The position numbers and the translations under genes are program-made. DNA of 64,000 nt from Acetobacterium woodii DSM 1030 (GTDB lineage Bacteria; Bacillota; Clostridia; Eubacteriales; Eubacteriaceae): NCBI RefSeq assembly GCF_000247605.1, contig NC_016894.1, forward strand, positions 3,027,732 to 3,091,731, in the 5' to 3' direction. Below are positions 22,101 to 51,026 of this stretch, one piece after another (the stretch's first letter is position 1; every line of letters starts with the position of its first letter). Under the pieces are notes generated by a model that was not told the DNA's origin, did not search any database, and saw only the letters and a list, made by a program, of their open reading frames with translations.

Positions 22101-22821
22101 CTGTGGCCTCAACGAGGTTATTATTCTGCATGGTATATCTGGCTCCGAGTTGATACTTCCCCATAATTACAAGACCAGCTATAACGCTCAACATACCAGC
22201 GTGGCATTTCTCAGCATCCTTAAAAACAATTACGTCAGAACTTGCGTAAAGCGCTTTATATAAGTCGGACAGAAAAAGCGATTCTTCTGATTGTGTAGGA
22301 TATAATGACAGCTCGACTTTGGAGATAGTACTATAGTTCAGGAGTTTTTCCTGATTCAAAGCGCTGATGGCCGTATCTATGAGACTGTTTTTCCCCATAC
22401 TCTCAGGCCCTATCATAATAAACGTATTCTTAGGCTTATCATTTTGCACACCCACAACAAGCGGTCGTTTAAAGGCGATGAAAAGCTCATCAATAGCCGC
22501 CCGTTGGCCGACAAATTGATTTAGAACAACCCGTTTAGCATTTTCGATTCTATTATCTATCTGATTGCCGGCAACCTTTACATTTGTTTTGCCGGAATAA
22601 ACTACTGCATCTCCAGATGTTTTCGCATTCGCTTGTTGCTTCTGTAATGGCTTACCCTGTGGCTGAGTCTGTACCTGACTTTGCATACCTCTTTGATTAA
22701 CAGAAACGCTCTGGGAAACAGCTGAAGTAGTTTTGCTTTTAGCAATAAACCCATACCTTTTGACAGATTCAATAATTTGATATTCCGGAAAAAGGAATTT
22801 AAGTATTTTAAGTAAATCCAC
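19195..22821 (-). CDS. Giant AAA+ protein with three CbbX/SpoVK-like modules
   Basis: 1208 aa. After a Gln/Ser-rich linker comes an N-terminal AAA-like domain with a defective Walker A (GPESMGKNS, about residue 138). Three intact CbbX/SpoVK-type modules follow, each with GNPGTGKT (about 455, 723 and 995), a Walker B FIDEAY or FVDEAY, and the AGYK/S-x-x-M and SRF blocks. Single-module relatives include the Rubisco activase CbbX, SpoVK and the EccA ATPases of type VII secretion. Three modules in one chain suggest a pre-linked half-ring. The GTG at 22821 has GGGGGGTG in front; the frame extends 9 codons further. It forms an operon with two membrane proteins. Substrate unknown. Confidence 0.85.
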   Translation of the reverse strand: MDLLKILKFLFPEYQIIESVKRYGFIAKSKTTSAVSQSVSVNQRGMQSQVQTQPQGKPLQKQQANAKTSGDAVVYSGKTNVKVAGNQIDNRIENAKRVVLNQFVGQRAAIDELFIAFKRPLVVGVQNDKPKNTFIMIGPESMGKNSLIDTAISALNQEKLLNYSTISKVELSLYPTQSEESLFLSDLYKALYASSDVIVFKDAEKCHAGMLSVIAGLVIMGKYQLGARYTMQNNNLVEATGVLMQNSISEISANNKYFIFVTPLSENKISDLFGSKFMENVADIIKFEPYSETEITEIARIILFALNIRCKNYLSVVLSYSEEFIQLCASKYKKVAGFKPVEDFITKDIYKALSEYKLRNTMNVNTNIFLNCINGAICAAMTENGESKTIDLTPFLPKKNTSNFDEIKKELLEVVGLTKVKEYVLDLENNLKVQQMREDAGHKTASLSMHMIFTGNPGTGKTMIARIIAKYLKIIGVLSTGHLREVSRADLVGQYLGHTAKQTNEVIQSALGGVLFIDEAYALCRDKNDIFGLEAIDALVKAIEDYRDDLVVILAGYKDEMEGFLKTNSGLKSRFPNIIDFEDYTALEMVQIADITAKSKGYKIADDCEDGLLRLFEKSQIKGRNDSGNGRLVRNVIEGAIIEQSKRIINAPKSEFDMLRHEDFKFDSFEKFDLEKSLGTIIGLENVKDFVRTQYRLLIANEKRRNAGIVVDSTQSLNMIFTGNPGTGKTTVARVVASMFKEMGLLKKGHLIETERGGLVAEYVGQTAQKTEEVFRNALGGVLFVDEAYALNSDNGSFGKEAIDTLVKLIEDYRGEIVVILAGYKKEMADFIKSNSGLESRFPLVIDFPDYKPDDLQAIALNMISVKGFTINEEAKTVLRDQVALAYKTATANSGNGRMVRNLIEKIMRNQSARIASVEDISKEGLTEILPEDIGVSNTSANTFDLEKSLSSVVGLTNVKNYVRSLYARLRMQSERKKIGLPVDNTQTLHMIFKGNPGTGKTMIARTVVEVLYNIGVIKTNKLVETDRAGLVAGYVGQTALKTTEKVSEAMDGVLFIDEAYSLAQGGANDFGREAIDTLVKLMDDNRERLVVILAGYSKNMDDFLLTNPGLKSRFANIIEFPDYSAEELMIIAGNLYSSKGYILCGGAKAKLFALFEKVLQEKAFGNGRYVRNVFERSVNKQALRLSSDMDLTRDELSTIEADDIEEV

Positions 22822-22834
22822 CGTTTCACCCCCC

Positions 22835-23082
22835 TTAGTAATTAACACTTCTTTCGACCGGCTTGAACCCCGAAGTTTTGAGAAATTTCATATTGTATCT
22901 GAAATTATTCATAGCATCGGAAGGGTCGATATTTGCAAAGTTGAGTTTGTTTAATGCATCTCGTTCCAAAGCTCAGACTCGTGCCGGTCTTTCCAAAATT
23001 CACGCGTACACCTTTGCAGATCTTTCTTTTTCATATCTTTATCTATGAATAGCTTCCATAATTTTTTGTAGCTTATTGCCAT
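22835..23082 (-). pseudogene. Gene debris upstream of the AAA operon
   Basis: The ATG at 23082 opens a 43-codon frame whose first 22 residues (MAISYKKLWKLFIDKDMKKK) are the start of a Cro/CI-type regulator; the helix-turn-helix itself is lost. A second frame ending at 22835 (ALNKLNFANIDPSDAMNNFR and onwards) looks like the C-terminal end of an unrelated protein. The two pieces abut near 22965, like a deletion scar. From 23083 to 23319 I see nothing coding. Confidence 0.45.
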
Positions 23083-23319: not shown

Positions 23320-23811
23320 TCAGGCCCGTATCATTGCCTGGCTCCAGCATTCGATCAGTTTCTCCAGCGAATACCTGGCATTAGCCGGACTTGTTGATGG
23401 TAGTTTAATGATTTTTTTATTCGTTTGTTGATAACAGTATCGGTTATACAACTCCGCGGCTTTGCCGCCATTGGCATAAACGGTTTTAATGCTGGTTTTA
23501 TTCAGCAACTTTGCAATATCATTAGGAACAACATTTTTAATTGATGCATCACTCGATCCCACAATATCACAGGAATAAATAACATCCCAAACGGCAATCC
23601 GCTGTTCTAACAACAATGCTTTTTTGGCGGCAATGGTTTTTGGTTCCGGTGCGTCCGTAAGGGCACTAATAACCTTCCAAAAGCGGTTTTGCGGATGATG
23701 ATAATAAAATTCTGCTGCGCGTGATTTTACCGACGGAAACGACCCTAAGATCAAAATTTGCGACACGTTATTATAGATTGGTTCAAACGGATGCTCCATC
23801 TCGATATTCAC
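23320..23811 (-). CDS. DNA-deoxyinosine glycosylase (uracil-DNA glycosylase superfamily)
   Basis: 163 aa, the usual size of this family. It begins HPFEPIYNNVSQILILGSFP with the active-site GSFPSVKSR and the following HHPQNRFWKV block, and has NGGKA near the middle and the C-terminal LPSTSPANA motif. It removes deaminated adenine (hypoxanthine) from DNA, starting base-excision repair. It lies 27 bp after the phosphoesterase gene on the same strand, probably only as a passenger at the end of the transcript. Confidence 0.85.
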   Translation of the reverse strand: MNIEMEHPFEPIYNNVSQILILGSFPSVKSRAAEFYYHHPQNRFWKVISALTDAPEPKTIAAKKALLLEQRIAVWDVIYSCDIVGSSDASIKNVVPNDIAKLLNKTSIKTVYANGGKAAELYNRYCYQQTNKKIIKLPSTSPANARYSLEKLIECWSQAMIRA

Positions 23812-23838: not shown

Positions 23839-25506
23839 CTAGATGTGGAGAGCCTGACCTTCGGTCCATTGAACAATGGTCTGATCCGGCAAATATTGAT
23901 AAAGATTGACCGTTTCAATGGCCGAATCCGCTTTCGCCGGCGTAATCACAACAAAGGTTCGGGTTGGATACCCTTGACCATTATCAATCCAGGTGCCGCT
24001 GTTGGCATAAATTGTTTTTTTATTTTCACAATTGGTCATCGGGATCACATCAGCAACATGCGTATGGCCAAAAACAACAATTCGTTTCGAAGGGTCTAAA
24101 TCAAAATATTGGGTTTGCGCTTGAATATCGGTAAACTCATCAACCGCTGCCTTGGTAATCGCTTCGCTGGTCGGGATTTTGACCGCGATCCCATTAATGG
24201 CTTGTCTTTCTTCCCAGGTATCCTGAATATGTTGATACAAGGTCATATCAATGATTCCCGTTTCTTTTTCTTGTTGGGGAATACAATCGTTAATGGCATA
24301 GTTTTCAGTAAATCCATCAATATTGGTTTTCAAAACTTTATCATCAAAGCCTTCTTTAACCGGCAATGTTGATAGAATCGCTTTCCAGGTTTGATAATAC
24401 AAATAAGCATTAAATTGACTTTCATCATCTTTGTTCGGGATCATTTCTGCAAAAACATTGTTCGATTGCGGATGCCCTTCAACCACACAGGTCGTGGCGA
24501 TCCGGGTAAAGAAATAACCGGGCGGCAAAATGGAGGTGTTGTTATTCGTAATATTCCTATTTGATAAAGGATCTGGCGTACAAAAGAAATTATATTTATG
24601 TCCATGTTCAATAACAATTTCAGAATTTGGTCCCGTCACGTAAGATCCCAGGCCCTGCAAATCATCGCGAGCCTGATTAATTCCCGGAAAAATCCGCTTT
24701 ACATCGTCTGCTGTCAGTAATAAATCGTGGTTTCCCGGTACATAGGTTACCTTTATTTCGCCGGCGTTAATAATCGCATTAAAGGCTTCCACGATGGCTT
24801 GGTTGTTTGCCGCCACTTGATCAAAAAACGCCGCTTCGGAATCAGGCATTTGATAATCCATCGGTAAAAACCATTCATCGAGCAAATCGCCGCCAATAAC
24901 CAATTCTTTCACATCAGGCGAGTTTTTTACCTGATTTAAAAAGGCCACCAAAGCTTTTTTATTTTTTTGAAGCTCCGCAAAAGAATCATCAACTCCCAAA
25001 TGAAAATCGCTGGCAATGATGATTTGCGTTCGTTCATTGTTTAATTCGGAATTACCAGCGAAGTTAAAATCAACGTTGGTCGCAAAATAGCCAACATAAT
25101 CACAGCCCAGTGCTCCTTTTGTTTTTGAACCCAAGGTGTCTTTTATGACCAACTGATACGCTTCACCTTGAGCAAACCGGGTAATCTCCTGATTATTAAT
25201 TTGTATCACCGTCGCATCCATACGATCAATTTTAACGCAACAGGCCTCTTTAACAGCATTCCCGTGTTGGTCAATTCGGTAGAGTTCAATCGCATCGGCA
25301 AGCGTTGCCGGATCAAGCGCTTGATTAAATTTTAAGGTGATCGTCTGTACGATATCATTAACCGGCGGATTCTCCAAACTATCGGACATTAAAATGTTGG
25401 ACTCGACCGTCATTTCTTGCGCATCATCACATCTTGATGTATAGACCCCCAGTAATTTGTTTGCAATTTTTAAACAGGTTAAGCTAAAATATTTTGAACT
25501 TTTCAT
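23839..25506 (-). CDS. Calcineurin-like metallophosphoesterase with N-terminal Ig-like domain
   Basis: 555 aa. Residues 45-150 look like an Ig-like fold (LKFNQALDPATLADAIELYR). From about 160 the phosphoesterase motifs appear in order: SDFHLG, GGDLLDE, PGNHD, EHGHKYNFF and FGHTHVADV, so the two-metal site is complete. There is no clear signal peptide although the Ig-like domain suggests extracellular use. It lies 17 bp after the second ATP-grasp gene, in the GH3 run. It may process a phosphorylated intermediate or product, but the substrate is unknown. Confidence 0.8.
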   Translation of the reverse strand: MKSSKYFSLTCLKIANKLLGVYTSRCDDAQEMTVESNILMSDSLENPPVNDIVQTITLKFNQALDPATLADAIELYRIDQHGNAVKEACCVKIDRMDATVIQINNQEITRFAQGEAYQLVIKDTLGSKTKGALGCDYVGYFATNVDFNFAGNSELNNERTQIIIASDFHLGVDDSFAELQKNKKALVAFLNQVKNSPDVKELVIGGDLLDEWFLPMDYQMPDSEAAFFDQVAANNQAIVEAFNAIINAGEIKVTYVPGNHDLLLTADDVKRIFPGINQARDDLQGLGSYVTGPNSEIVIEHGHKYNFFCTPDPLSNRNITNNNTSILPPGYFFTRIATTCVVEGHPQSNNVFAEMIPNKDDESQFNAYLYYQTWKAILSTLPVKEGFDDKVLKTNIDGFTENYAINDCIPQQEKETGIIDMTLYQHIQDTWEERQAINGIAVKIPTSEAITKAAVDEFTDIQAQTQYFDLDPSKRIVVFGHTHVADVIPMTNCENKKTIYANSGTWIDNGQGYPTRTFVVITPAKADSAIETVNLYQYLPDQTIVQWTEGQALHI

Positions 25507-25523
25507 TTATAGCAACTTCCTTT

Positions 25524-26447
25524 TTAAATTTTATTTTTTTTTCTTTTTTGGGCTTCTGTCATAATATCCTTAAGTGTCAGCAATAATGGATTGCTGGCTG
25601 AATGACTCTGGGCATCTTTTGAATAAGTTAATCCGGTCATTGAATTAGCTTCACAAATATAATAACTGTCGTTTTCGCCAAAAAGAAAATCAATGCTGCC
25701 AAAATAAATATCCAATACCGCGGCCGCTTTTTCAGCAATTTCAACCACTGCTTCCGGAGGGGTAATAAACTGCAGATCCCCGCCTTGTGAAAGATTGGAT
25801 TTAAAGTTGTCGCCATTATCGCGGATATATGCGGTCGAAAATTTTCCCCCGCTCAACATGATCCGCATATCGCGGCCTTTTGAAGCTACAATACATTCCT
25901 GAATCAAAATATGATCGTCAAAACTCATGGCCGCATAAACATCCAGCAAGTTTTCCAATTCTTTTTCAGTTTTAACCAGCACCACGCCTTTACCCTTGCT
26001 ACCATGCATTACTTTAATTACACAGGGTAAACCCACTTCTCTGGCAATAAAAGAAGGCTTGGTTTTCGCTGTCATCAACACTGTTTTGGGAAAAAGGAAC
26101 CCTTGTTTGGCCGCCCCCAGCTTTTGAAAGGTCAATAATTTATCGGCGGTATTATTTAAACTTTCGGAACTATTGACACAAAGGACATTCAGCGATTCCA
26201 ACATTTTCACAACCGCTTTGCTGTTGTAATTGTTCCCTCCAAAAAATGCCGATAGCGCGAAATCAGGGATATCCACCGGTTCCCCATCGATATAACAATA
26301 GTTGCTTTCGCCTGGTTCACACAACACTTCAACTTCGCTGACATCAACGGTTTTGATGTTGATTTCCATCTTTTCAATTAATTTGATAATGGTTTGAATC
26401 GACGGTTCTTCAAGTGTTTTTTGATTAACTAATAACCATCCTAACAT
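25524..26447 (-). CDS. RimK-like ATP-grasp ligase, copy 2
   Basis: 307 aa. A pre-ATP-grasp part (1-95) is followed by the ATP-binding lobe with VIKVMHGSKGKGVVLV, the GRDMRIML and FKSNLSQGG motifs, and the metal site in ICEANSMTGL (relatives usually have a Pro where it has Thr). RimK-like enzymes join an amino acid to a carboxylate through an acyl-phosphate. It overlaps the stop of copy 1 by 7 bp and is clearly its paralogue, so the operon probably makes two successive ligations. Confidence 0.85.
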   Translation of the reverse strand: MLGWLLVNQKTLEEPSIQTIIKLIEKMEINIKTVDVSEVEVLCEPGESNYCYIDGEPVDIPDFALSAFFGGNNYNSKAVVKMLESLNVLCVNSSESLNNTADKLLTFQKLGAAKQGFLFPKTVLMTAKTKPSFIAREVGLPCVIKVMHGSKGKGVVLVKTEKELENLLDVYAAMSFDDHILIQECIVASKGRDMRIMLSGGKFSTAYIRDNGDNFKSNLSQGGDLQFITPPEAVVEIAEKAAAVLDIYFGSIDFLFGENDSYYICEANSMTGLTYSKDAQSHSASNPLLLTLKDIMTEAQKRKKNKI

Positions 26448-27364
26448 GTTTTACCCTCTTCTCTTAATCGTTTCTTCCATAACGGTTCCGGTCTGTTTTT
26501 GACCTGCTTCATTAAATCCGCAAACATGACTTTAATGTCAAAAGCAACCCCCGGCATTGCATTGGCTTCACATAAATAGAAGGTATCATTTTCGCCAAAC
26601 AGGAAGTCGACACTGCCCATATTAATTTTTAACAACTGCGCCACCTGTTCAGCAGCGGCAATAACCGGTGCCGGCGGTAGATATTCGACGATATGGCCGC
26701 CTTTAGCAAGATTCGAACGAAAACTCGTCTCATTTTGACGGACAAATGATTTGACAAATTTGCCGTTGGCCAGAATCATGCGCAAATCACGACCGGCTGA
26801 TGCCGCAATACACTCCTGAATAATAATCTGATCGCCGATTTCACTGGCTGTACTCATACTAATTAGATTATCGAGTTCTTTTTCGCTATTGACCAACACA
26901 ACCCCTTTACCCTTGCTGCCATGCATCACTTTCATCACCACCGGATAATCAAATAACTTGCTAACAAAAGATGCTTCGGTGTATTCCGTTACCAGCAGGG
27001 TTTTAGGAAAACAAACATTTTCAATCGACTCAGCCACCAATTGAAAAGTCAGCAGTTTATCGTCAACATTTTTGATGGCATCATAAGAATTAATACAAAG
27101 TACCCCCAGCGATTCCAGCATTCTTAGGGCTGCTGATGTATGATAATTTTTTTCGGTGAAAAATGCCGCCACGACATAATCCGGAACCGCCATGATTTCA
27201 TCACCGACATAAAGTTTTCCGTCAAAGTCATGATCGCAAACCACATGTATTTGCAATGGATCGACCACCGTCAGATCCACATTTAATTCTTCCACCACCT
27301 TCATAATCTTAACGATTGAAGGATCTTCCATTTTACCGGGATTTCTTAATAACCAACCTTTCAT
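26441..27364 (-). CDS. RimK-like ATP-grasp ligase, copy 1
   Basis: 307 aa, the same layout as the next gene: N-terminal domain (MKGWLLRNPGKMEDPSIVKI), ATP lobe VMKVMHGSKGKGVVLV, then GRDLRMILANGKF, FRSNLAKGG and the metal ligands in LCEANAMPGV. All catalytic blocks are present. It probably forms an amide bond between a carboxyl group and an amino acid. It follows the ABC transporter genes by 62 bp with AGGAGG before the ATG. The tandem copy suggests duplication and new substrate use; the substrate cannot be told from sequence. Confidence 0.85.
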   Translation of the reverse strand: MKGWLLRNPGKMEDPSIVKIMKVVEELNVDLTVVDPLQIHVVCDHDFDGKLYVGDEIMAVPDYVVAAFFTEKNYHTSAALRMLESLGVLCINSYDAIKNVDDKLLTFQLVAESIENVCFPKTLLVTEYTEASFVSKLFDYPVVMKVMHGSKGKGVVLVNSEKELDNLISMSTASEIGDQIIIQECIAASAGRDLRMILANGKFVKSFVRQNETSFRSNLAKGGHIVEYLPPAPVIAAAEQVAQLLKINMGSVDFLFGENDTFYLCEANAMPGVAFDIKVMFADLMKQVKNRPEPLWKKRLREEGKTC

Positions 27365-27426
27365 AGTAACCTCCTAAATATTAATTATCGTACTACCATT
27401 AAAAATCCACACCCGTAACGTTTCAG

Positions 27427-29202
27427 TTAATTATCGGATGCACTTAAATACAAATTCGCGTATAAACCACCGAGCTTCATCAGCTCCGCATGACTCCCCA
27501 CTTCTTTAATATCGCCTGCCATCATAAAGATAATTTTATCGGCATTTTTAATCGTAAACAGGCGATGGGCAATAATAAAAGTCGTTCGCCCTTTCATCAT
27601 GGTTTCCATTGCCTGAGTGATCAGGATTTCTGTTCGTGTATCGACCGAAGAGGTTGCTTCATCAAGAATCAGCACCTTCGGATCAGCAATAATCGTCCTG
27701 GCAATGGCCAGAAGCTGACATTCACCTTCGGAAAGGGTCGTAAAATCGCCGCCGATATGGGTTTCATAACCTAAGGGTAATTTTCTAATAAATTCATCAC
27801 ATTGGGCTTTTTTAGCCGCACTAATCACGTCTTCCCGGGTTGCCCCGCTTTTCCCATAAGCAATGTTTTCGGCGATCGTGCCATCAAATAACCAGGTATC
27901 CTGAAGCACCATCCCAAATGCGCTACGCAAATTATTACGGGTCATGTTTTTTACATTTAACCCTTCTAATAAAATATCGCCTTGATTAATTTCGTAAAAA
28001 CGCATCAGCAAATTGACCAGCGTCGTTTTTCCCGCCCCGCTGGGACCAACGACCGCCAGCACCTCTCCGGGTTCCGCTTTTAAAGAAACATCATGGAAAA
28101 GTGTACGGTCGGGCAGATACCCAAATTCGACATGATTAAATTCAATCCGTCCTTCGGTATTCGCGACATCCAACACCGCTGTTCCGCTATCTTCCGGTTC
28201 TTCCTCACGGTCCAGAAATTCAAAAATTCGTTCTGCTGCCGCCGCTCCGGATTGAATAAAGTTTAAATTGTTTGAAATCAGTGCGGTCGGACTGGCAATA
28301 TTATTGGCATAAATCAAAAACGCCTGAATCCCACCAATCGTCAACGATCCGGAAATAACAAAGATTCCCCCGGCAACACAAATTCCAATATAAGCAAGGT
28401 TATTGATAAGTTTCATTAATGGTGAAGTCAATCCCGAGTAAAATCGGGAACTTAAATAGGATTTGAAAAAACGCTGATTAATCGCATCAAATTTTTCGGC
28501 CGCTTTTGCTTCATGATTAAACGATTTGATAATCAGATGACCATCATAAACCTCTTCAATCAAACCATTAAGGGCACCCAATTCTTTTTGTTGTCGTCTA
28601 AACAGCACCTGCGTTTTTTTGGTAATTATCTTCATTACCCCATATGATAATGGCAGTGCTACAAAAAAGATCAGGCTGAGTTGTACATTTAATACCAACA
28701 TCATCACAATAATCCCTACGATCGTGGTTCCCTGCACCAGAATTTGGGTCAGATTGCTCTCCAAAGCACCTGATAAAGTCGTTGCATCATTAGTCACCCG
28801 AGATAATAAATCGCCCCGTTCACTTTGATCCAAGACATTTAATGTTAGTTTATTCAATTTTTTCTGAATATCTTCCCTTAACCGTTTAATCGCCAGTTGT
28901 GACAAATAAGTCGTCCGCATGGTCGCATAATAAGCAAACCCGGCACTAAGCAGATACAATACCGCCAGTAATATCAGTTGTTTTCCGATATAGCCAAAAT
29001 CAATATCAATATTCTGGGCAACACTGCCAGCAATGCTATCGGTTATATCTTTCGTAACGACCGGTGCAAAAATGGCAAAAATCGTACTTGATACTAAAGC
29101 AATAAAGATGAATATGGCAACATATGTTTTATCATTCAGATAATATTTCAATCGTTTCCCGATTGCTAAAAAGCTAGTTGTTCTTTTCTTTTTTGCTTTC
29201 AC
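27427..29202 (-). CDS. ABC exporter half-transporter B (MdlB-like)
   Basis: 591 aa: six membrane spans (about 25-320), then a nucleotide-binding domain with GPSGAGKTTL (about 390), signature LSEGECQLLAIAR and the catalytic LILDEATSSVD. The Glu after Walker B is present, so this half carries the working ATP site of a heterodimer. GTG at 29202 overlaps the end of the partner gene (GTGA) with GGAGG ahead. Together the pair probably exports the product of the GH3 and ATP-grasp enzymes. Family members also move lipids and drugs. Confidence 0.9.
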   Translation of the reverse strand: MKAKKKRTTSFLAIGKRLKYYLNDKTYVAIFIFIALVSSTIFAIFAPVVTKDITDSIAGSVAQNIDIDFGYIGKQLILLAVLYLLSAGFAYYATMRTTYLSQLAIKRLREDIQKKLNKLTLNVLDQSERGDLLSRVTNDATTLSGALESNLTQILVQGTTIVGIIVMMLVLNVQLSLIFFVALPLSYGVMKIITKKTQVLFRRQQKELGALNGLIEEVYDGHLIIKSFNHEAKAAEKFDAINQRFFKSYLSSRFYSGLTSPLMKLINNLAYIGICVAGGIFVISGSLTIGGIQAFLIYANNIASPTALISNNLNFIQSGAAAAERIFEFLDREEEPEDSGTAVLDVANTEGRIEFNHVEFGYLPDRTLFHDVSLKAEPGEVLAVVGPSGAGKTTLVNLLMRFYEINQGDILLEGLNVKNMTRNNLRSAFGMVLQDTWLFDGTIAENIAYGKSGATREDVISAAKKAQCDEFIRKLPLGYETHIGGDFTTLSEGECQLLAIARTIIADPKVLILDEATSSVDTRTEILITQAMETMMKGRTTFIIAHRLFTIKNADKIIFMMAGDIKEVGSHAELMKLGGLYANLYLSASDN

Positions 29203-30938
29203 AGTGATTCCTCCTTCCCATCGCTATAGGATTGGGATTTTAGAATTTCCTGATACACCGCACACTCACGGATTAATTCATCATGTCGACCTTGACCAAC
29301 AATCGCACCATTATCCAGAACCAGAATCAGGTCGGCATTTTTGATGGTACTAATTCGCTGCGCCACGATTAAAACCGTTTGATTACTGAACTCTTCCCCA
29401 ATGGCTTTGCGTACCAGAGAATCGGTTTTAAAATCCAACGCCGAAAAACAATCGTCAAAGATCGTAATCGGAGCTTTTTTAACAACCGCTCTGGCAATAC
29501 TCAAACGTTGTCGCTGTCCGCCGGAAAGATCCTTTCCGCCCTGGGAAATCGTGCTCAGCAATTGTCCTTCCCGTTCATTGATAAAATCGAGCGCTTGCGC
29601 AGTCGCTAAAGCTTTTTGGACTTCCTCTTCGGAAGCGTTCTGATTCCCAATTCGAATATTATCGAGTACTGTTCCACTAAACAAAACCGATTCCTGCGGC
29701 GCATAAGCAATCATATTTCTTAAATCCTGTTGGGCGCAATCGCGGATATCAATACCATCGATTTTTATCGCCCCCTGACTAACCTCATAAAGTCGCATAA
29801 TCAGGTTGACCAGCGTCGTTTTACCGGACCCGGTGGCTCCGACAATGGCTGTTATTTTGCCCGGTTCCGCCTGGAAGTTTAATTGCTCCAGAACATTTAT
29901 TTCTGCGCCGGAATAACCAAAAGACACCTTATCAAAAGTGATTTTACCCGTGATGTCGGTTAATGCCACGGTCTCTTTTGGGTCCTGAATGGAAAAATCC
30001 ATATCCAATACTTCTTTAACCCGAGCTGCGGAGACAGCGGCCTGAGGATAGGCCATTAGCAAAGCTGAAACCAGACCAAGTGCTGACATAAACATCAATA
30101 CGTACTGAATAAACACCATCAGACCGCCGAGACTTACGATTTGTTGTTGAACCTGCTGCGAGCCTAGCCAAAGAATAACAACCATCGTCAAATTCATCAT
30201 TAATTGCATCAATGGCGCAAAAAACGCAACGGCATAATTAGCTTTTAAAGCCGTTGCAAATCCCTCTTGATTCGCTTCTTCGAATTTTTCGGTTTCATAA
30301 TCCTGACGATTAAATGCCCGAATTGCCCGAACTCCGGTCAGCTTTTCTTTCATCAGCAAATTTAGGCGATCCACTTTTTGTTGCATATTTTTAAATAACG
30401 GCATACTTCTGGCGGTTGTAAAACCGATAATTAAAGTCGTGATCAAAAATGAGACCAGCAACAATAAGGTTAACATCACATTTTCCCGAAACGCCATAAT
30501 CAAAGCTCCAACCCCGGTAATTGGCACCAGTAACAACGACCTTAAACCATTGATTACAACAATTTGCATTTGCGTGGCATCGGTTGTCGATCGCGTCAAC
30601 AGCGTCGCTGCACCAAACTGATTGAAATCCGTTTGGCTAAAATCTTTTACTTTATCAAACACATCGGCTCGAATGCGACTGGTGAAAGATGCCGTCACAT
30701 AAGCCGAATAATAGCTTGATGCGACCATACAAATCGCCGCAAACAAGGAAACCCCCAACATCCAGGCTCCGCTTGTTAAAATATAAGGTGTATTTCCCTG
30801 TGCCACCCCGTTCTCAATAATATCGCCCATCATACTGGGCAGGTATAATTGTGCCGCCGCCTGACTTAAAACAAACACAAAAACTAAAATCATCGGCAAA
30901 CGATAATCTTTTAAATAACGTACGAGTAAACTGATCAT
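29199..30938 (-). CDS. ABC exporter half-transporter A (MdlA-like)
   Basis: 579 aa: six membrane spans, then a nucleotide-binding domain with GATGSGKTTL, the canonical signature LSGGQRQRLSIARA and a degenerate Walker B, ITIFDDCFSALD, with Asp in place of the catalytic Glu. One degenerate half plus one active half is the rule for heterodimeric exporters. The ATG at 30938 has AAGGAG upstream and starts 3 bp after the second GH3 gene. Confidence 0.9.
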   Translation of the reverse strand: MISLLVRYLKDYRLPMILVFVFVLSQAAAQLYLPSMMGDIIENGVAQGNTPYILTSGAWMLGVSLFAAICMVASSYYSAYVTASFTSRIRADVFDKVKDFSQTDFNQFGAATLLTRSTTDATQMQIVVINGLRSLLLVPITGVGALIMAFRENVMLTLLLLVSFLITTLIIGFTTARSMPLFKNMQQKVDRLNLLMKEKLTGVRAIRAFNRQDYETEKFEEANQEGFATALKANYAVAFFAPLMQLMMNLTMVVILWLGSQQVQQQIVSLGGLMVFIQYVLMFMSALGLVSALLMAYPQAAVSAARVKEVLDMDFSIQDPKETVALTDITGKITFDKVSFGYSGAEINVLEQLNFQAEPGKITAIVGATGSGKTTLVNLIMRLYEVSQGAIKIDGIDIRDCAQQDLRNMIAYAPQESVLFSGTVLDNIRIGNQNASEEEVQKALATAQALDFINEREGQLLSTISQGGKDLSGGQRQRLSIARAVVKKAPITIFDDCFSALDFKTDSLVRKAIGEEFSNQTVLIVAQRISTIKNADLILVLDNGAIVGQGRHDELIRECAVYQEILKSQSYSDGKEESL

Positions 30939-30941
30939 CAC

Positions 30942-32618
30942 TTACTCCTTATTCACTAATGCAAAAAAGAAATTTTCTTTAACCAGCGTATCGATGACGC
31001 GAACCGGTTTTAACTGATTTCCGGAAATCCCCCGCATAATCATCAAATCTCGGTACAATGCGTAAGTTTCTTCCTGAACAAACGCAATTTCCGAGGGACT
31101 AAGCACACCACTTTTTACTTTAGACCGAATCGAAGGATTGGCGATTCCTAATTTTTCTTCAATCACATTACGAAGCTCATCATAACGATTTGGAGCCAAC
31201 GGTTTTTCCGTTTCGATGAAAATGACATAACGCCCTGGCGACACCGCAACATCGGCATAAACACTATAATCAACTAATTCACAGCCAACTTCTTTGGCAA
31301 ATTCCTTAACGGCCCATGAAACCGATTCTTCAGTCGTTTTTTCGCCGGCAATACTGACCATTTGGTTAAGCCGATAAACAAATTGGATCTTTGGACAGTT
31401 TTTATACCAGCCTACAACTCGCACCACATCTTTAATGCGATAGCGGTAAAAACCGGACGTATTGGTTAAGACAATTTCATAATCTTTTCCGGTTTCGAGT
31501 TGTTCCATCGTCAGGGTTTCTTGCGAATCTTCCTGTCCCACCGGGATAAACTCATAAAAAGCACTATCCGGAATCAGCACAAACTCTTGAGATTCCATCT
31601 CATTACAAATCGCCATAATCGACTCAGATGCGGCATAAACACTAAAATAAATGGGAATATCTCCCAAATAATGGCGCATTTTATCGGTATATACGGAAAA
31701 TCCACCACTACCGATCGCATGGACAAAAGCAAACTCGGGCCAGATTCTTTTTATAATTGGCGTATCGAAACCTTTTTCGAATTCTCGTCTTAATTCTGCC
31801 GCCCGTTTGGGATTGGGTTTAATTTGTCTTAATAGCTGTTGTTTTACTTCATCCGGCATTTTGATATCGGGATCAATCGTCCCCTTTTTGATATCTTCAA
31901 CAATCAGTTCCCAGTTATTTTCCAGATATTTCATCAGATCGGAAACCCCAGTCATAAAAGCGGAAACAATGTAAGATAAATTTCGATCCATCAGAGCAAA
32001 ACGGAGATGGGCGTATTTGGTATCCATAATTTCGGTCGGAAAAACGATCTCTTTTGGTGATGAAAACATCAAAAACAATAAGTTTTTAATGCTATACACC
32101 CCCCGGCCAGAAATTGAGCCGGCAAAAAGTCCATTAGGCAAGGTTTCAAATTTAACTTCCATAAGATTCAGGCCCCGGCCTTTTTTCCATTTTTCACCTA
32201 ATGCCCGAGCAATAATTGCAAAACTAAACTGCGTCGCATATTCGCGATAAAGTTTAACCGTTTGTTCCGAAACCGGTATTTTTTTGGGGTTATCGACGCT
32301 TCCAGAAGTAAGGGCATAATGAACAATCGGGTCATTGGTAAGCAATTTTTCTTCGCCGGCAATCATCCGTTCGATATAAGGTGCATAGTCGTCATAAATT
32401 GAAAAAGGCACCTTTTTCTGATAATCTTCAATGGTTGTGATCTCATTAAAGCAATAACGTTTTCCATACTCGGTATCGGCATTTTTTTTAAGCATAGAAA
32501 ATAATAATTGTTTATTGACTGATGGCGCATTTTCGGTTAAATAATCAAAGTTTTTAATTTTTTCATTACCTTTTTTGATATTTAGCGAATAAACGGCTTT
32601 TGGTATTATTTTTATCAT
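30942..32618 (-). CDS. GH3-family acyl-acid amido synthetase, copy 2
   Basis: 558 aa. GH3 enzymes (best known from plant auxin and jasmonate conjugation) activate a carboxylic acid with ATP and join it to an amino acid or amine. The three ATP motifs are present: TSGSVDNPKKIP (about 110), YAASE (about 330) and NTSGFYRYRIKDVVRVV (about 395). The start is the ATG at 32618, which overlaps the stop of copy 1 (ATGA) behind AAAGGAAGG. A second, divergent copy next door implies two different acids or acceptors. Confidence 0.87.
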   Translation of the reverse strand: MIKIIPKAVYSLNIKKGNEKIKNFDYLTENAPSVNKQLLFSMLKKNADTEYGKRYCFNEITTIEDYQKKVPFSIYDDYAPYIERMIAGEEKLLTNDPIVHYALTSGSVDNPKKIPVSEQTVKLYREYATQFSFAIIARALGEKWKKGRGLNLMEVKFETLPNGLFAGSISGRGVYSIKNLLFLMFSSPKEIVFPTEIMDTKYAHLRFALMDRNLSYIVSAFMTGVSDLMKYLENNWELIVEDIKKGTIDPDIKMPDEVKQQLLRQIKPNPKRAAELRREFEKGFDTPIIKRIWPEFAFVHAIGSGGFSVYTDKMRHYLGDIPIYFSVYAASESIMAICNEMESQEFVLIPDSAFYEFIPVGQEDSQETLTMEQLETGKDYEIVLTNTSGFYRYRIKDVVRVVGWYKNCPKIQFVYRLNQMVSIAGEKTTEESVSWAVKEFAKEVGCELVDYSVYADVAVSPGRYVIFIETEKPLAPNRYDELRNVIEEKLGIANPSIRSKVKSGVLSPSEIAFVQEETYALYRDLMIMRGISGNQLKPVRVIDTLVKENFFFALVNKE

Positions 32619-34336
32619 TTTTCGCCTTCCTTTGCCCAATAAATAATGCTGTTATGATCTGGATATTCTCGTACAATGGTTTTTAATTTTGTCTGGTTGA
32701 CATTTTTACCTGGCATGATTGAGCGGGTAAACAAAGAATCCCGATAACCATCAATCACCGCAATAACTTCAGCAGGTAACAACTGCCGCGACTGCCGCAA
32801 TTTTTGGTAGACCTGATTTTCCGTCGTTAAACTTGTTTCCAATGTTTCTCTAAACGACTTATAGTTAAATGTTTCTGAGCAAGGTTCCAGAATAAAAATC
32901 AGTTTTTTTTCATTTTCATCCAATAAAACCTGGAAAAAGCGAATCTCCTCAGCCAAATCATCTGAAATCTTTTTTATGTGTCGATCAATTTCATAAACCA
33001 TTAATTTTAACTCGTCAACAACAAGGCTTTCTGAGGACTTGCTGACAAAAACAATCCTGGGAATCTGATTATTCATGTCGGTAACATAAACGATATCTTT
33101 CATATTATAGCGGTATAAACCGGAATATGAAGTAACAATCAGTTCATAATAGGCCCCCGGTTCCAGTTCATGTGCCAATAACGTTTCCTGATTATTGGCA
33201 TCCACTGGCAGGAACTCAAAAAAATACCCAAAAAGAGCTGGTAATCCGGCCGGATTGCCAGCTCTATCGGGGATATTGAATTTCCCTTCACTGGCCCCAT
33301 AACCCCACTCTAAAAACTTAACATGATTGGGCAGATTTTTTTTGATATCGGTAACAATATTCGCTGCACTGGCGGACATCCAACAGGAAATAACGCTAAA
33401 TTCCGGCCAGATCGATGCCACATCAAGTTGTTTATGGGTATCATAAATCACCCTTAGTTCGTTTGCCCGCTGGGGATTCGGTCGCAGTTTAGCGGTAAGT
33501 TGTTCTCTTAGCGTCTCACTGATTGCGATTTTGGAACTAATCTGACCATTTTCGATATCATCCAATAAATCACCGGCAAACGTCTTCATTTTTTTTAGTA
33601 GGATATTAAAATGCGCGATGTTACTGCAAACAACTCCGACTAATTGCTTTTCTTCCAGCGCATAACGAATTGTTAAATAATCTGTTGCTTCATTCCCAAG
33701 ATCTTTTGCCAACATCATCTCCACTGGTAAAACCATCTTTTTTTTCAATTCCGCCGGAAGATCCTTGGCGGCTTGTCCGGAAGCTGAACCAATGGGAATC
33801 CCGCCAACTGTTTTGCCATATTCAGATGGATTAGCAATTGCCAGAATTTTTTTTTGCGGTTCCATCACTTCCGGAGCCAGCATTAAGAGCAAGATAGCCC
33901 GAATTTGAGATACTAAACCTTTGATGATTTCGCCATTTTTACTTTCTGGAATCAGTTTCGGAACGCCCGTCGAACCACTGGTCGCAATAAAACTCGCTGT
34001 CGCACCGTTAAACAAAACATCCTTTTTACCGGCTTTTAGTTTTTCAATCTCCGCTTCAAGATCAGAATAATTTGAGATTGGCAGCTTCTCTTTAAACCGT
34101 TCAATGGTACTAATCTCAGAAAAGCCCATTTTTTGACCAAACTCGCTATTTTCAGCAGATTTTAAAATATCCTGAAGTACACTTTTCTGGGTGTACTCAG
34201 GATTGTTTTCCATGAAATAGAAACTTTTGATTAATTTTTCATTGGACATCTGCTTTAATTTTTCAGGAATACTGTGGCCAGTCATTCCCTCAAAGATGTC
34301 ATGCAAAGTTTCTTTCGGGATGCTCTCTTTTGTCAT
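32615..34336 (-). CDS. GH3-family acyl-acid amido synthetase, copy 1
   Basis: 573 aa. Adenylation motifs are intact: TSGSTGVPKLIP (about 125), the GASEGKF block (about 310) and TSYSGLYRYNMKDIVYV (about 400). The C-terminal lid domain (LMVYEIDRHIKKISDDLAEE) differs from copy 2, so the acceptor probably differs. I chose ATG 34336, with GAGGTGG upstream; the frame extends 5 codons into the STAS stop. It is the first enzyme of the run and is coupled to the STAS gene. Confidence 0.85.
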   Translation of the reverse strand: MTKESIPKETLHDIFEGMTGHSIPEKLKQMSNEKLIKSFYFMENNPEYTQKSVLQDILKSAENSEFGQKMGFSEISTIERFKEKLPISNYSDLEAEIEKLKAGKKDVLFNGATASFIATSGSTGVPKLIPESKNGEIIKGLVSQIRAILLLMLAPEVMEPQKKILAIANPSEYGKTVGGIPIGSASGQAAKDLPAELKKKMVLPVEMMLAKDLGNEATDYLTIRYALEEKQLVGVVCSNIAHFNILLKKMKTFAGDLLDDIENGQISSKIAISETLREQLTAKLRPNPQRANELRVIYDTHKQLDVASIWPEFSVISCWMSASAANIVTDIKKNLPNHVKFLEWGYGASEGKFNIPDRAGNPAGLPALFGYFFEFLPVDANNQETLLAHELEPGAYYELIVTSYSGLYRYNMKDIVYVTDMNNQIPRIVFVSKSSESLVVDELKLMVYEIDRHIKKISDDLAEEIRFFQVLLDENEKKLIFILEPCSETFNYKSFRETLETSLTTENQVYQKLRQSRQLLPAEVIAVIDGYRDSLFTRSIMPGKNVNQTKLKTIVREYPDHNSIIYWAKEGEK

Positions 34337-34347
34337 TCCGGCCCACC

Positions 34348-34650
34348 TCACTCAATCGTTAAGATGTCCGAAAAACCAGTCATGTCGAACACTTCCTGGA
34401 TCTCGGGTTTGACATTTTTAATCACTAAGCTACCATTAAGCGCTTTAGATTTTTTCTGAATTAACAGTAACACTCTTAACCCCGCGCTACTAACGAAATC
34501 CAACTTATCAAAATCCAATACCATTTTAAAACCTTCCTGAGAATAGTAGGTTTCCATCTCTTTCTGAAACTCCGGTGACGTGTTCGTATCCATCCGACCT
34601 TCTAAGTCAACGACAAATATTCCATTTTCTTGTTTAACATCAATTTTCAT
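34348..34650 (-). CDS. STAS-domain anti-sigma-factor-antagonist-like protein
   Basis: 100 aa, a complete single STAS domain: EGRMDTNTSPEFQKEM, then the phospho-acceptor region LDFDKLDFVSSAGLRVLLLI with the conserved SSAG serines. Such proteins bind anti-sigma factors until phosphorylated. No anti-sigma kinase is nearby, so its partner is elsewhere or it controls the enzymes directly. It is the first gene of the GH3 run; its ATG follows AGAAAGGG, and a small transposable element separates it from the likely promoter. Confidence 0.88.
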   Translation of the reverse strand: MKIDVKQENGIFVVDLEGRMDTNTSPEFQKEMETYYSQEGFKMVLDFDKLDFVSSAGLRVLLLIQKKSKALNGSLVIKNVKPEIQEVFDMTGFSDILTIE

Positions 34651-34678: not shown

Positions 34679-34849
34679 TAGGTAATTGCGAAATGAAAAA
34701 ACATCGAATAACGGTTGCTTTAGGTGCAGTTTCCACAAACAATTTTGTAACGTGTCGGCGAACCGTTCATCGAACTGTCCGCCGTACCGTGTAGAAATTG
34801 TTTCGTGCGAAACTGGGCCCAAAGCTCACGGCATTTTCGCAATTACCTA
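34679..34849 (+). mobile_element. MITE-like element, copy 1 (171 bp)
   Basis: Ends are inverted repeats TAGGTAATTGCGAAA and TTTCGCAATTACCTA, and the interior can fold on itself. It is flanked by the direct repeat ATACGTTTTTT (target duplication, 9-11 bp depending on where the ends are set). It shares about nine in ten bases with copy 2 in the other orientation and encodes no transposase. It sits in the leader of the STAS/GH3 operon. Confidence 0.85.
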
Positions 34850-34933
34850 ATACGTTTTTTAAATTGTAACATCCTCCGATGATGCAACGACTCATAAATT
34901 TTTTTACAAATTGCCTTTTTTTAATTTCAATTG

Positions 34934-35291: not shown

Positions 35292-37625
35292 ATGAAAAAG
35301 AACTCTGTTATCTCCATTATTATCATCCTACTAATTCTCCTGACCGCCATTTTGTTTGTTCGCGGCTGTAGCCAAGAAGGAAGCGAAATGAAAAATTATA
35401 CCGTAGCGGGTACCTACACCGAAACGGCGACGTATCAGGACGCCGAAATTACTGTTTCTGGTGTAAATATTGAAAATGCCACTTATACCGGTAGCGTTAC
35501 CATTACAGATGCTGTTACCGACGGTGATATCCGTCTGACAAAGTCTGCCGTACAAGGTGAATTGCTGGTAAAAGGAGGCGGCACCATTTATTTGGACGGA
35601 GGCTCCTACCAAAGTATTACGCTCGAAAGGCAAGATGTAAAACTTATTTTGCTCGGCGATGCCACTGTCGAAACCCTTAATGCCCGATCGGCTGCCAATA
35701 TCGTTGTTGACAATCAAAGCAAGGTCAAAAGTTTGACTGTCGATAAAGCTGCCAATCGTACAGCTATTACCACCCAGGAAAACGGCACCATTGATAATCT
35801 GCAATCACGAGGAATCAGCGATATTGTTCTGAACACTCCCGCAAAATTAGTCGGTTTCAGCGCCAATGCCGGTGGGTCAACGCTTGTCAGCAATGCCGTT
35901 ATCGATAAAATTGTCGCTGAGTCAAAAGTGGTCTTAACCTTAAATGCCAACGTTGGTTCGTTATTATTAACCAGTGGCGGTGAGGGTACCCAAGTGACGC
36001 TTAATAATAATGCCGTCATCAATTCCCTGGCGACTGAATCACACGTCGAAGTTTCGGGTGAAGGCAGTATTACCAGTGCTACCACCAGTGACGTTTTATT
36101 CATTACCGGCACAATTACCCCGGATGTTGTCTATATTACCACCAAACCGGTGGTCAGTGATGCCAACGGCGAACTTACCGCTTCGTCAAATACCAGCCAT
36201 CCAGCTACTGGCAATTTTGGTGGGAATAATACCTGGTATTCTGAAAGCCATACGATCAGCAGTATCATCGATACCCATTATAATGTCCCTGCCGTTAATC
36301 CCGTTGACACACCTTCTGAACCGAACCCCCCCGGCCCGGTGGCGGTGACAGGAATTCAAGTAACACCTGTCGAAGCCGATGTCATTATGGGCAACACCTT
36401 AAAACTCAATACCGTCATTTTCCCTGAAAATGCCAGCAATTGCACCGTTTTATGGGAATCTTCCAATCCTGATATTGCGACGGTTAGCAATGGAATTGTA
36501 ACCCCAGTCACTAATGGTGAGGTGACCATTACCGCAAGAACACAAGATGGTGATAAAACTGATAGCTGTAAGGTCACCGTAAAAACAAACATCACTGCAG
36601 TCACCATGATTAATACCATCAATGCAGTGAATAATAGCATCGCCGAAACGATTCCCTATGATGGCAGTTACACTCTACCGGTGGTTGTTATCGCTCAGGG
36701 TTATCAAAATGAAAACTTCCCCTGTTCCGTTAACTGGTCGCCCAATACTGTTAACCCAACCGCTGTTGGTGAAACAACCTACACGGGAACTTTGGTGATG
36801 CCCAATAACTACGTCAACCTGAATAACATCGAAGCGACCATTGTTTTAACCGTCCAGGCACAACCGATTATCACCGCTAGTTCGGAATTATATTCGCAAC
36901 GAATTTATCTAAATGAAGATCCCGCCCCAATAGCTGTTAACGCCAGTGTTACGCAAGATAAGGTATTAAGTTATCAATGGTCTCAACGTATTGCTGATGT
37001 CGAAACACCGTTGCCAGATGTCAGCGGACCAATTTATGACCCTCCGGTTTCAACGACCCCCGGTACTGTCTATTACAACTGTCTGATCACGACCGAAAAG
37101 GCCGAACCGATTACCGTATTAGCTGGCATTGTCGTCACCAGTGTTGATCCTGCTGTTTTAACTGATCCGATTAACGCTGACGAAAATAACGCGACAGCAG
37201 TGCCAAACGAAAATAATCCGGTCGAGCCAATCATTGCAACCGGAGCATCCGAACTGCCAACCATTGTAAAACAGCCAACCAGCATTTCACAACTTAGCAG
37301 TGTTGCTTTGGCCGCCAGTTTAGCTCAGGCAACCAGTACTGCCCAAGCGGCTCTTGGCTCACCAAAGCCAGAATTACCAACCGCTTCCTTCTTCGTCGAT
37401 GCGGTAGTTAATGATGGCGGTACCTTGAGCTACCAATGGTTTAAAACATCCGCAGCAGTTAATGCCGATGGTACCCCGATTGCCGGTGCCACCGATAAAA
37501 CCCTCGAAGTCGATGCAACGGGTTTATCAGGAACAACCTATTATTATGTCGAGATCACCAATACTAAAGACGGCTGTTTACCGGAAGTAACCGTTAGTCT
37601 GCCAGTCTCCTTTACTGTTTCTTAA
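35292..37625 (+). CDS. Secreted cell-surface protein with beta-repeat and Ig-like (Big_2) domains
   Basis: 777 aa. A signal segment (residues 5-25) ends in FVRGC, a non-standard lipobox, so the protein may be a lipoprotein or a simple secreted or anchored protein. Residues 40-330 are Thr/Val/Asn-rich repeats of a beta-solenoid type. A Pro-rich linker (about 345) leads to a Big_2 Ig-like domain (about 352-435, LWESSNPDIATVSNGIVTPV) and further Ig-like modules to the end, the last with SYQWFKTSAAV. No sortase motif or enzyme motif is seen. It is a monocistronic gene, probably an adhesin or cell-wall protein. Confidence 0.8.
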   Translation: MKKNSVISIIIILLILLTAILFVRGCSQEGSEMKNYTVAGTYTETATYQDAEITVSGVNIENATYTGSVTITDAVTDGDIRLTKSAVQGELLVKGGGTIYLDGGSYQSITLERQDVKLILLGDATVETLNARSAANIVVDNQSKVKSLTVDKAANRTAITTQENGTIDNLQSRGISDIVLNTPAKLVGFSANAGGSTLVSNAVIDKIVAESKVVLTLNANVGSLLLTSGGEGTQVTLNNNAVINSLATESHVEVSGEGSITSATTSDVLFITGTITPDVVYITTKPVVSDANGELTASSNTSHPATGNFGGNNTWYSESHTISSIIDTHYNVPAVNPVDTPSEPNPPGPVAVTGIQVTPVEADVIMGNTLKLNTVIFPENASNCTVLWESSNPDIATVSNGIVTPVTNGEVTITARTQDGDKTDSCKVTVKTNITAVTMINTINAVNNSIAETIPYDGSYTLPVVVIAQGYQNENFPCSVNWSPNTVNPTAVGETTYTGTLVMPNNYVNLNNIEATIVLTVQAQPIITASSELYSQRIYLNEDPAPIAVNASVTQDKVLSYQWSQRIADVETPLPDVSGPIYDPPVSTTPGTVYYNCLITTEKAEPITVLAGIVVTSVDPAVLTDPINADENNATAVPNENNPVEPIIATGASELPTIVKQPTSISQLSSVALAASLAQATSTAQAALGSPKPELPTASFFVDAVVNDGGTLSYQWFKTSAAVNADGTPIAGATDKTLEVDATGLSGTTYYYVEITNTKDGCLPEVTVSLPVSFTVS

Positions 37626-41953: not shown

Positions 41954-41981
41954 TTACAACCTCCATTAAAGTAAAAAGTCT

Positions 41982-42152
41982 TAGCTAATTGCGAAAATGC
42001 CGTGAGCTTTAGTCCCCGTTTCTCACGAAACAATTTCTACACGATGCAGCGGACAGTTCGATGAACTGTTCGCCGACACGTTACAAAATTGTTTGTGGAA
42101 ACTACACCCAAAGCAACCGTTGTTCGCTGTTTTTTAATTTCGCAATTACCTA
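41982..42152 (-). mobile_element. MITE-like element, copy 2 (171 bp)
   Basis: Same length as copy 1 and inverted relative to it. Ends TAGCTAATTGCG and CGCAATTACCTA; one end has a G-to-C change. Flanked by the direct repeat AGTAAAAAGTCT (target duplication of about 10-12 bp). The right end lies inside the 3' end of aroC: the element supplies the last sense codon (AGG) and the stop (TAA). Confidence 0.88.
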
Positions 42153-50908: not shown

Positions 50909-51026
50909 CGGGTAATTGCGAAACTGCCATGAACTTTGTAGCCAGTTTCACACATTACAGAATCGTTTGCAGAAACTGCACCTAAAGCAACGATTGTTCG
51001 ATGTTTTTTAATTTCGTAATTACCTA
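50909..51026 (-). mobile_element. MITE-like element, copy 3 (118 bp, internally deleted)
   Basis: Left end CGGGTAATTGCGAAA, right end TTTCGTAATTACCTA. It matches copy 2 over both ends but lacks about 53 bp of the central palindrome. No clear target duplication remains, so it is older. It ends 27 bases before the MarR-type gene. Confidence 0.75.

Follow-up and report, generated by a model that had tools for sequence, protein, structure and literature searches.

The window analysed here is a stretch of 64,000 nucleotides (nt) from Acetobacterium woodii DSM 1030 (contig NC_016894.1, positions 3,027,732 to 3,091,731), whose genome is a single contig of 4,044,777 bases. It carries on its minus strand an operon whose core consists of seven genes, encoding a STAS protein, two GH3-family adenylating amide synthetases (GH3a and GH3b), two halves of an ABC exporter (ABCA and ABCB), and two RimK-like ATP-grasp ligases (AG1 and AG2). 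Judging from sequence, this operon on balance probably makes and exports a small amide-linked metabolite, with no peptide synthetase encoded in the Acetobacterium operon. The observations behind this reading are the gene content, the intact enzyme motifs, the conserved gene order, the predicted fold of GH3b, and the orthology of the GH3 pair and the ABC halves with those of a locus (L108) in a genus of another order, here called g32.

Operon organization and conservation in Acetobacterium

The genes named in an initial annotation of this DNA were all found on the minus strand, at their assigned places and in their assigned families, by checks of the open reading frames (ORFs) and by Pfam and NCBIfam scans (Table 1). 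Most junctions are overlaps of 4 to 7 nt or direct contacts, with three gaps as exceptions. STAS and GH3a overlap by 4 nt, given a GTG start of GH3a at 34351 (an alternative ATG lies at 34336), and GH3a and GH3b overlap by 4 nt with the ATG of GH3b at 32618, the TTG at 32639 merely marking the longest frame. GH3b and ABCA are spaced by 0 nt, ABCA and ABCB overlap by 4 nt, and AG1 and AG2 overlap by 7 nt. The gaps separate ABCB from AG1 (62 nt), AG2 from the metallophosphoesterase gene (17 nt), and the latter from the glycosylase gene (27 nt).

Conservation of the operon was examined with GH3b, which is present in 17 of 19 Acetobacterium genomes. None of 21 genomes from eight further genera in the family has a credible GH3b; one match (E 2e-5) lies in a frame with seven stops. 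Twelve loci were found by GH3b, including two from metagenome-assembled genomes (MAGs) of the same genus (G006 and G008), and all 11 with adequate flanks have the order STAS-GH3a-GH3b-ABCA-ABCB-AG1-AG2; L010, of 4,144 bases, was excluded from this synteny count. With L107, L137, L139, and the window added, the six genes from GH3a to AG2 follow one another in this order in all 15 loci whose flanks suffice (L138 is the contig of L013 and was counted once), and STAS is present in 14, being missing in L107. Whether related genomes keep the GH3, ATP-grasp, and ABC genes together had been set out initially as a refuting test, and within the genus these genes do stay together in every one of the 15. 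GH3b was matched only from residue 63 in L013/L138 (one species), where it is broken near its start, and ABCB only from residue 96 in L007, a MAG; each break reflects either decay or sequencing error.

Nonsynonymous divergence (dN) of the seven core genes between the window and seven other Acetobacterium loci was 0.026 to 0.51, with values of 0.026 to 0.31 for AG1, 0.075 to 0.23 for GH3b, 0.185 to 0.51 for GH3a, and 0.05 to 0.37 for STAS. Synonymous divergence (dS) exceeded 1 or was saturated, hence not computable, in many pairs; the pairs that allowed an estimate of dN/dS gave 0.022 to 0.166. The genus-wide order and these divergence values point to more than chance.

Core enzymes, exporter and STAS protein

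Both synthetases scored above the cut-offs for PF03321 (216.9 bits for GH3a and 294.1 bits for GH3b; cut-off 23.6), PF23571, and PF23572. In an alignment of 50 GH3s, each keeps ATP motifs I to III and the C-terminal Lys, which bears out the initial statement that the ATP motifs are intact, although motif I of GH3b is divergent (TSGSVDNPK, against TSGSTGVPK in GH3a). TSGSVDNPK is also present in seven of the eight g32 rows of GH3b, the L108 copy having TSGSVGNPK. Motif III (YRYN) and the C-terminal VNQTKL of GH3a are both common to the two g32 copies of GH3a, and YRYN was found in the L135 pair and L120 as well. By sequence, GH3b matched an auxin-conjugating GH3 of grape with 219.4 bits over residues 19 to 542. 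Its AlphaFold model, with a predicted local distance difference test (pLDDT) score of 86.1, has a template modelling (TM) score of 0.86 to Arabidopsis thaliana GH3.6, and its fold alignments with plant GH3s run at 21 to 28% identity. The model of GH3a is fair (pLDDT 70.0), and its best PDB matches by sequence and by fold are plant GH3s.

In the GH3 tree, the GH3a proteins of Acetobacterium and g32 form a seven-row group (support 94/87) within a nine-row clade (100/100) that also takes in a third family (L135), and GH3b falls within a broader group of 20 rows with weaker support (83/86). The sole NCBIfam match of both synthetases is OlsH_GH3_orni (NF052613), and their scores of 105.1 (GH3b) and 72.3 (GH3a) against a cut-off of 620 rule out their assignment as OlsH. 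An extra GH3, 40% identical to GH3b and adjoining a cation-efflux-type gene, was seen in the genome of L013 (L136, 9281-10969).

Heterodimeric exporters with one degenerate site combine a half that has a non-canonical Walker B motif with a partner half that has a degenerate signature. ABCA and ABCB are adjacent halves of this kind: ABCA has a non-canonical Walker B (FDDCFSALD) and a canonical signature (LSGGQ), and ABCB has a canonical Walker B (LDEATSSVD) and a degenerate signature (LSEGE). The best NCBIfam match of both is MsbA, below its cut-off of 602 (421.2 for ABCB and 388.5 for ABCA). The ABC tree was built with the window and two other Acetobacterium loci, the g32 halves, and host paralogues from six places (five ABC pairs and one single half). 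Acetobacterium ABCA joined L108_ABCA and ABCB joined L108_ABCB, each with support of 100/99, and the host paralogues were separate.

AG1 and AG2 matched PF08443 with 87.3 and 88.7 bits (cut-off 21). For rimK_fam (TIGR00768; cut-off 143.4), AG2 lies above the cut-off (148.9) and AG1 just below it (135.5). They are 44% identical and form one clade (100/100) on a long branch (1.36), far from tandem RimK-like pairs of other Clostridia, and at E 1e-15 nothing else in the host genome matches their profile. AG1 has a FRSNL..GG stretch common to RimK structures, and the nearest solved structures to both are L-glutamate ligases. The metal-binding ATP-grasp residues Asp, Glu, and Asn are invariant in the ligase alignment (A1), in agreement with the initial description of the ATP motifs of both ligases as intact. 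Like the alpha-L-glutamate ligases of RimK/TIGR00768, AG1 and AG2 belong to the ATP-grasp family and have the F[RK]SNL stretch; unlike them, they are tandem paralogues of about 300 amino acids (aa), and among the matches listed they fall below the cut-offs of the RimK, LysX, MptN, and CofF equivalogs.

The STAS protein scored 69.1 bits for PF01740 and 82.3 bits for ant_ant_sig (cut-off 53.45), lies below the cut-off of the spore_II_AA equivalog (58.4 versus 114.75), and keeps the SSAGL phospho-serine motif of SpoIIAA-like proteins. No kinase or SpoIIE-type phosphatase was found among ten window proteins scanned, the rest of the genome not being searched. Comparable genes occur beside GH3s distant from GH3a and GH3b in the tree, in the arrangements STAS-GH3-MatE-SpoIIE (L121, 9112-14445), STAS-GH3-SpoIIE/HATPase (L122, 6630-10677), and MatE-ATPgrasp_ST-GH3-SpoIIE (L123, 285-7571), where the ATP-grasp is sugar-transfer-associated. 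Since STAS adjoins GH3 in two further lineages (L121 and L122) and SpoIIE does so in L123, these neighbourhoods suggest a recurrent partner-switch control of bacterial GH3 pathways.

Related clusters outside the genus

Samples of 391 genomes from the class and 398 from the phylum were searched. PF03321 matched in 26 of the 391 class genomes at E 0.001 (24 above the cut-off) and in 35 of the 398 phylum genomes, many of them weakly (26 above the cut-off), and the ATP-grasp profile matched in 40 class genomes at E 1e-15. GH3 and ATP-grasp genes were both present in seven class genomes and physically linked in all seven, of which three are Acetobacterium and four are g32. Because the seven belong to two genera, they represent two lineages, not seven events.

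GH3b-type genes are present in eight of 12 g32 genomes. In L108 (genome G055), a tight and complete run of GH3b-GH3a-NRPS-ABCA-ABCB was found, in which the non-ribosomal peptide synthetase (NRPS) has 988 aa with AMP-binding (A), peptidyl carrier protein (PCP), and condensation (C) domains. The L108 operon has this NRPS module in place of the ATP-grasps. In an alignment with linear gramicidin synthetase, the Asp that is usual in adenylation domains for amino acids seems to be replaced. L142 (G810) holds only the GH3b-GH3a-NRPS part and is cut by contig ends. The presence of the GH3 pair with an NRPS and an orthologous exporter favours a non-ribosomal amide product.

A second g32 cluster (L112, L116, L117, and L145) has the order ABCA-ABCB-ATP-grasp (446 aa)-RimK-like (290 aa)-GH3. 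A second GH3 was seen in L112 and L116, and the contig stops at the GH3 in L117 and L145. Wherever the cluster is intact, in either genus, GH3 and an ABC pair are accompanied by another amide-forming set that differs between clusters, as a small-amide pathway predicts, unlike random linkage. Orthology of the exporter of this second cluster with ABCA/ABCB was considered and rejected. As a separate observation, an NRPS gene lies convergent to the GH3 cluster of L112 (98-4597), with condensation, AMP-binding, PCP, and terminal reductase-type domains; NRPSs of this type make peptide aldehydes.

Neighbourhoods of 27 GH3 loci from other genera were also read. For most of them the neighbours were known as ORF lengths and BLAST matches to window proteins, with Pfam scans of chosen genes in L121, L122, L123, L125, and L132; left out were GH3 matches below about 100 bits, as well as G647, whose match of 146.6 bits lies at the edge of a contig. 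ABC-exporter-like genes occurred in two of the 27 (L109 and L111). Origin from a phage or plasmid was rejected, since short-pattern scans of viral contigs gave no relatives of AG1 or GH3b, and in plasmids GH3b and GH3a each matched 10 records, every one below 60% identity.

Proposed pathway and its alternatives

In the pathway that we propose, GH3a and GH3b would each turn a carboxylic acid into its acyl-AMP and then join the acyl group to an amine or amino acid. The two ligases, AG1 and AG2, would convert a carboxylate to an acyl phosphate and each add one further amino acid, which by analogy with the RimK family could be glutamate-like. The product would exit through the predicted ABCA/ABCB heterodimer, with one canonical and one degenerate ATP site, and the STAS protein would probably gate the operon's expression or activity through a partner switch, together with a kinase and a SpoIIE-type phosphatase whose genes lie elsewhere. 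The initial annotation proposed that the product might be a signal, an antibiotic or a metallophore. We infer the order of the reactions, the action of all four ligases on one product, the direction of transport, and the role of STAS.

Several observations weigh against a single amide pathway. In the window AG1 is the sole core gene with a gap before it (62 nt), and in L008 this gap is about 210 nt. Beyond the genus, orthology of the whole core is limited to one full locus (L108) and one partial locus (L142). The ABC halves of the second g32 cluster did not group with those of the window in the tree, and the L116 ABCB matches two other host ABC genes better than it does the window ABCB. L140 (G811) and L141 (G809) show the GH3 end of that cluster with a single GH3, and L118 (G234), a decayed form of the cluster, lacks the ATP-grasps. 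No dedicated precursor-acid gene was found in the operon by Pfam scan, so primary metabolites or acids from the medium are the likely inputs. Tandem RimK-like pairs occur away from GH3 in other Clostridia (L149-L152, L155, L156, L159, and L160), in varied and often housekeeping contexts, and BLAST found no GH3 beside them; AG1 and AG2 may therefore act on something other than the GH3 product. The single-pathway idea of the initial annotation is partly supported: it gains from linkage in the 15 Acetobacterium loci and the seven co-occurring genomes, and loses from the 27 GH3 loci of other genera, where the DNA read holds no AG1/AG2-like gene.

Among described systems, the closest logic is that of the fungal E-64 pathway, in which, according to PMC12568646, the ATP-grasp enzyme Cp1B and the amide bond synthetase Cp1D make successive amide bonds. 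Both systems are NRPS-independent and unite an acyl-phosphate (ATP-grasp) enzyme with an acyl-adenylate enzyme in one cluster, the adenylating amide synthetase of the window being a GH3. In contrast to the window, the amide synthetase of E-64 is of the ANL family (the word GH3 is absent from PMC12568646), and the pathway as given there is fungal, with single copies and a precursor oxygenase and with neither a two-GH3 core nor STAS. The plant GH3s (GH3.6, GH3.5, and JAR1) are like the window enzymes in fold, ATP motifs, and C-terminal Lys; they differ in having no operon, ligase, or exporter partners, and the identity of 21 to 28% and the divergent motif I of GH3b set them further apart. The initial annotation knew of no described pathway with this combination, and none is described among the matches listed in the open-access literature for GH3 with RimK-like ligases and an exporter.

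One characterised bacterial GH3 is OlsH of Singulisphaera, which according to PMC12493201 carries out ATP-dependent formation of N-acyl ornithine, and it raises an alternative that we regard as unlikely, namely that the operon makes an aminolipid. In this case the GH3s would link a fatty acid to the nitrogen of an amino acid, as OlsH does, the ATP-grasps would lengthen the head group by further amino acids, and the aminolipid would be flipped to the outer leaflet, or moved out of the cell, by the MsbA-like ABC pair. The OlsH and MsbA models, being the sole or best NCBIfam matches of these proteins, speak for it, as does the formation of an N-acyl amino acid with ATP by a bacterial GH3. All of these matches are, however, far under their cut-offs, and GH3b is closer to plant GH3. 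Moreover, the OlsH/OlsI system, as presented in PMC12493201, is a three-gene operon with one GH3, an alpha/beta-hydrolase, and a methyltransferase, and neither an OlsI-like alpha/beta-hydrolase nor a methyltransferase was found among the ten window proteins scanned.

It is quite unlikely that one transcript serves two functions, with GH3a, GH3b, and the ABC pair forming an export pathway and AG1/AG2 being a relocated general RimK-like pair for protein or cofactor glutamylation. The often housekeeping contexts of other clostridial pairs would fit such a split, as would the gap before AG1, the lack of AG1/AG2 in L108, and their standing as the only profile matches of the host genome. It is countered by the separate, long-branched clade of AG1/AG2 apart from those pairs, by their never being separated from the GH3 and ABC genes in 15 loci, and by a different ATP-grasp pair having joined GH3 and an exporter in g32.

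Acetogens meet benzoates or phenylacrylates, and plant GH3.12 conjugates 4-substituted benzoates. Detoxification, in which the GH3s would conjugate excess or foreign aromatic acids to amino acids and the exporter would expel the conjugates, is hardly likely: plant GH3s are the nearest solved structures by sequence and fold, and L125 has a GH3 with a major facilitator superfamily (MFS) transporter and MarR in an efflux-like arrangement, but this explanation leaves two GH3s with two ATP-grasps, and the NRPS in the orthologous operon, unaccounted for, and the operon is headed by STAS, not by a ligand-sensing regulator.

Other bacterial GH3 contexts and neighbouring features

The exporters or ligases beside GH3 in L121, L123, and L125 belong to families unrelated to those of the window operon, and their pairing with GH3 speaks for the proposed pathway. 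On a Streptomyces plasmid (L179), a GH3 lies in a type I polyketide synthase (PKS) neighbourhood with thrS. It is like the window in placing a bacterial GH3 within a natural-product gene cluster, and unlike it in its PKS context and in the absence of an ATP-grasp and an ABC pair among 15 features listed. This GH3 looks like borL of borrelidin, with no supporting paper among the matches listed. A separate recurrent GH3 cluster was seen in L120, L124, L131, L132, L133, L134, and the Citrobacter plasmid L178, with a protein of about 240 aa, a GH3, and neighbours alike among the loci. Two of its neighbours in L132 are B12-binding radical S-adenosylmethionine (SAM) enzymes by Pfam, and L178 carries, in one row, a GH3 gene together with four radical SAM genes and one for an N-acetyltransferase. 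The GH3 genes treated in PMC8305402 are the bean's own.

Table 1. Genes of the operon and adjoining features in the window.
Feature	Position	Strand	Description
STAS protein	34348-34650	-	100 aa, SpoIIAA/RsbV-like; heads the operon
GH3a	32615-34351	-	GH3-family adenylating amide synthetase, divergent subtype
GH3b	30942-32618	-	GH3-family adenylating amide synthetase, plant-like subtype
ABCA	29199-30941	-	ABC exporter half, PF00664 and PF00005
ABCB	27427-29202	-	ABC exporter half, PF00664 and PF00005
AG1	26441-27364	-	RimK-like ATP-grasp ligase, PF08443
AG2	25524-26447	-	RimK-like ATP-grasp ligase, in-lineage paralogue of AG1
Metallophosphoesterase, calcineurin-like	23839-25506	-	PF00149; neighbour, outside the core
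DNA-deoxyinosine glycosylase	23320-23811	-	TIGR04274; neighbour, outside the core
MITE-like palindromic repeat	34680-34870		5' leader of the operon; outside the system

Of two genes downstream, the initial annotation placed the metallophosphoesterase at the end of the run and mentioned the glycosylase as following it, outside the range given (23839-34650). The metallophosphoesterase matched PF00149 with 36.9 bits and has a Big_5-like N-terminus under the Pfam cut-off. The glycosylase has the uracil-DNA glycosylase (UDG) fold and matched TIGR04274 with 139.2 bits (cut-off 80). Membership of the two in the operon was rejected, the phosphoesterase being kept in just seven of the 15 Acetobacterium loci.

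The 5' leader of the operon folds far better than shuffled sequences (z -7.1). It holds a strongly palindromic repeat of about 170 bp, resembling a miniature inverted-repeat transposable element (MITE), with at least 40 full-length copies at 93 to 100% identity (40 of 194 candidates were scored). Further copies lie in the window at 41973-42151 and 50911-51025, and the leader copy stops about 30 nt short of the STAS gene. In 12 other Acetobacterium loci, the 640 nt that precede STAS were searched and the repeat was not found. No Rfam match was found for the leader, the lone row (mir-5, E 4.1) being chance. A riboswitch or other structured RNA was dropped as an explanation because the element is an interspersed, multi-copy repeat that was not found before STAS in those 12 loci. 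Promoter and terminator scans came out near chance (34 versus 35.3 and 17 versus 12.9).

Divergent from the operon on the plus strand (35292-37625) lies a gene whose product evolves fast and has a Big_2 domain and a signal-like N-terminus; it stands beside the operon in all 14 other Acetobacterium loci read, at 42 to 76% identity. On the minus strand, 19195-22848 encodes a protein of 1217 aa in which, as judged by eye, an AAA+ domain of the CbbX/SpoVK type is present in three copies.

Implications

A wider picture, which we offer tentatively, is that GH3 and a heterodimeric exporter could form a portable core with interchangeable amide-forming modules and a recurrent STAS/SpoIIE control, making a new class of operon. 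The modules might then be the RimK-like pair in Acetobacterium and, in the distant clostridial genus, either an A-PCP-C NRPS or a different ATP-grasp pair. PMC12493201 describes GH3 homologues as widespread in bacteria, with functions that for the most part are still open. A genus-wide operon in cultivable acetogens provides a concrete system in which to search for a product. If the proposed pathway is true, GH3s would join the toolkit of NRPS-independent amide assembly, and the operon would provide a handle for genome mining.

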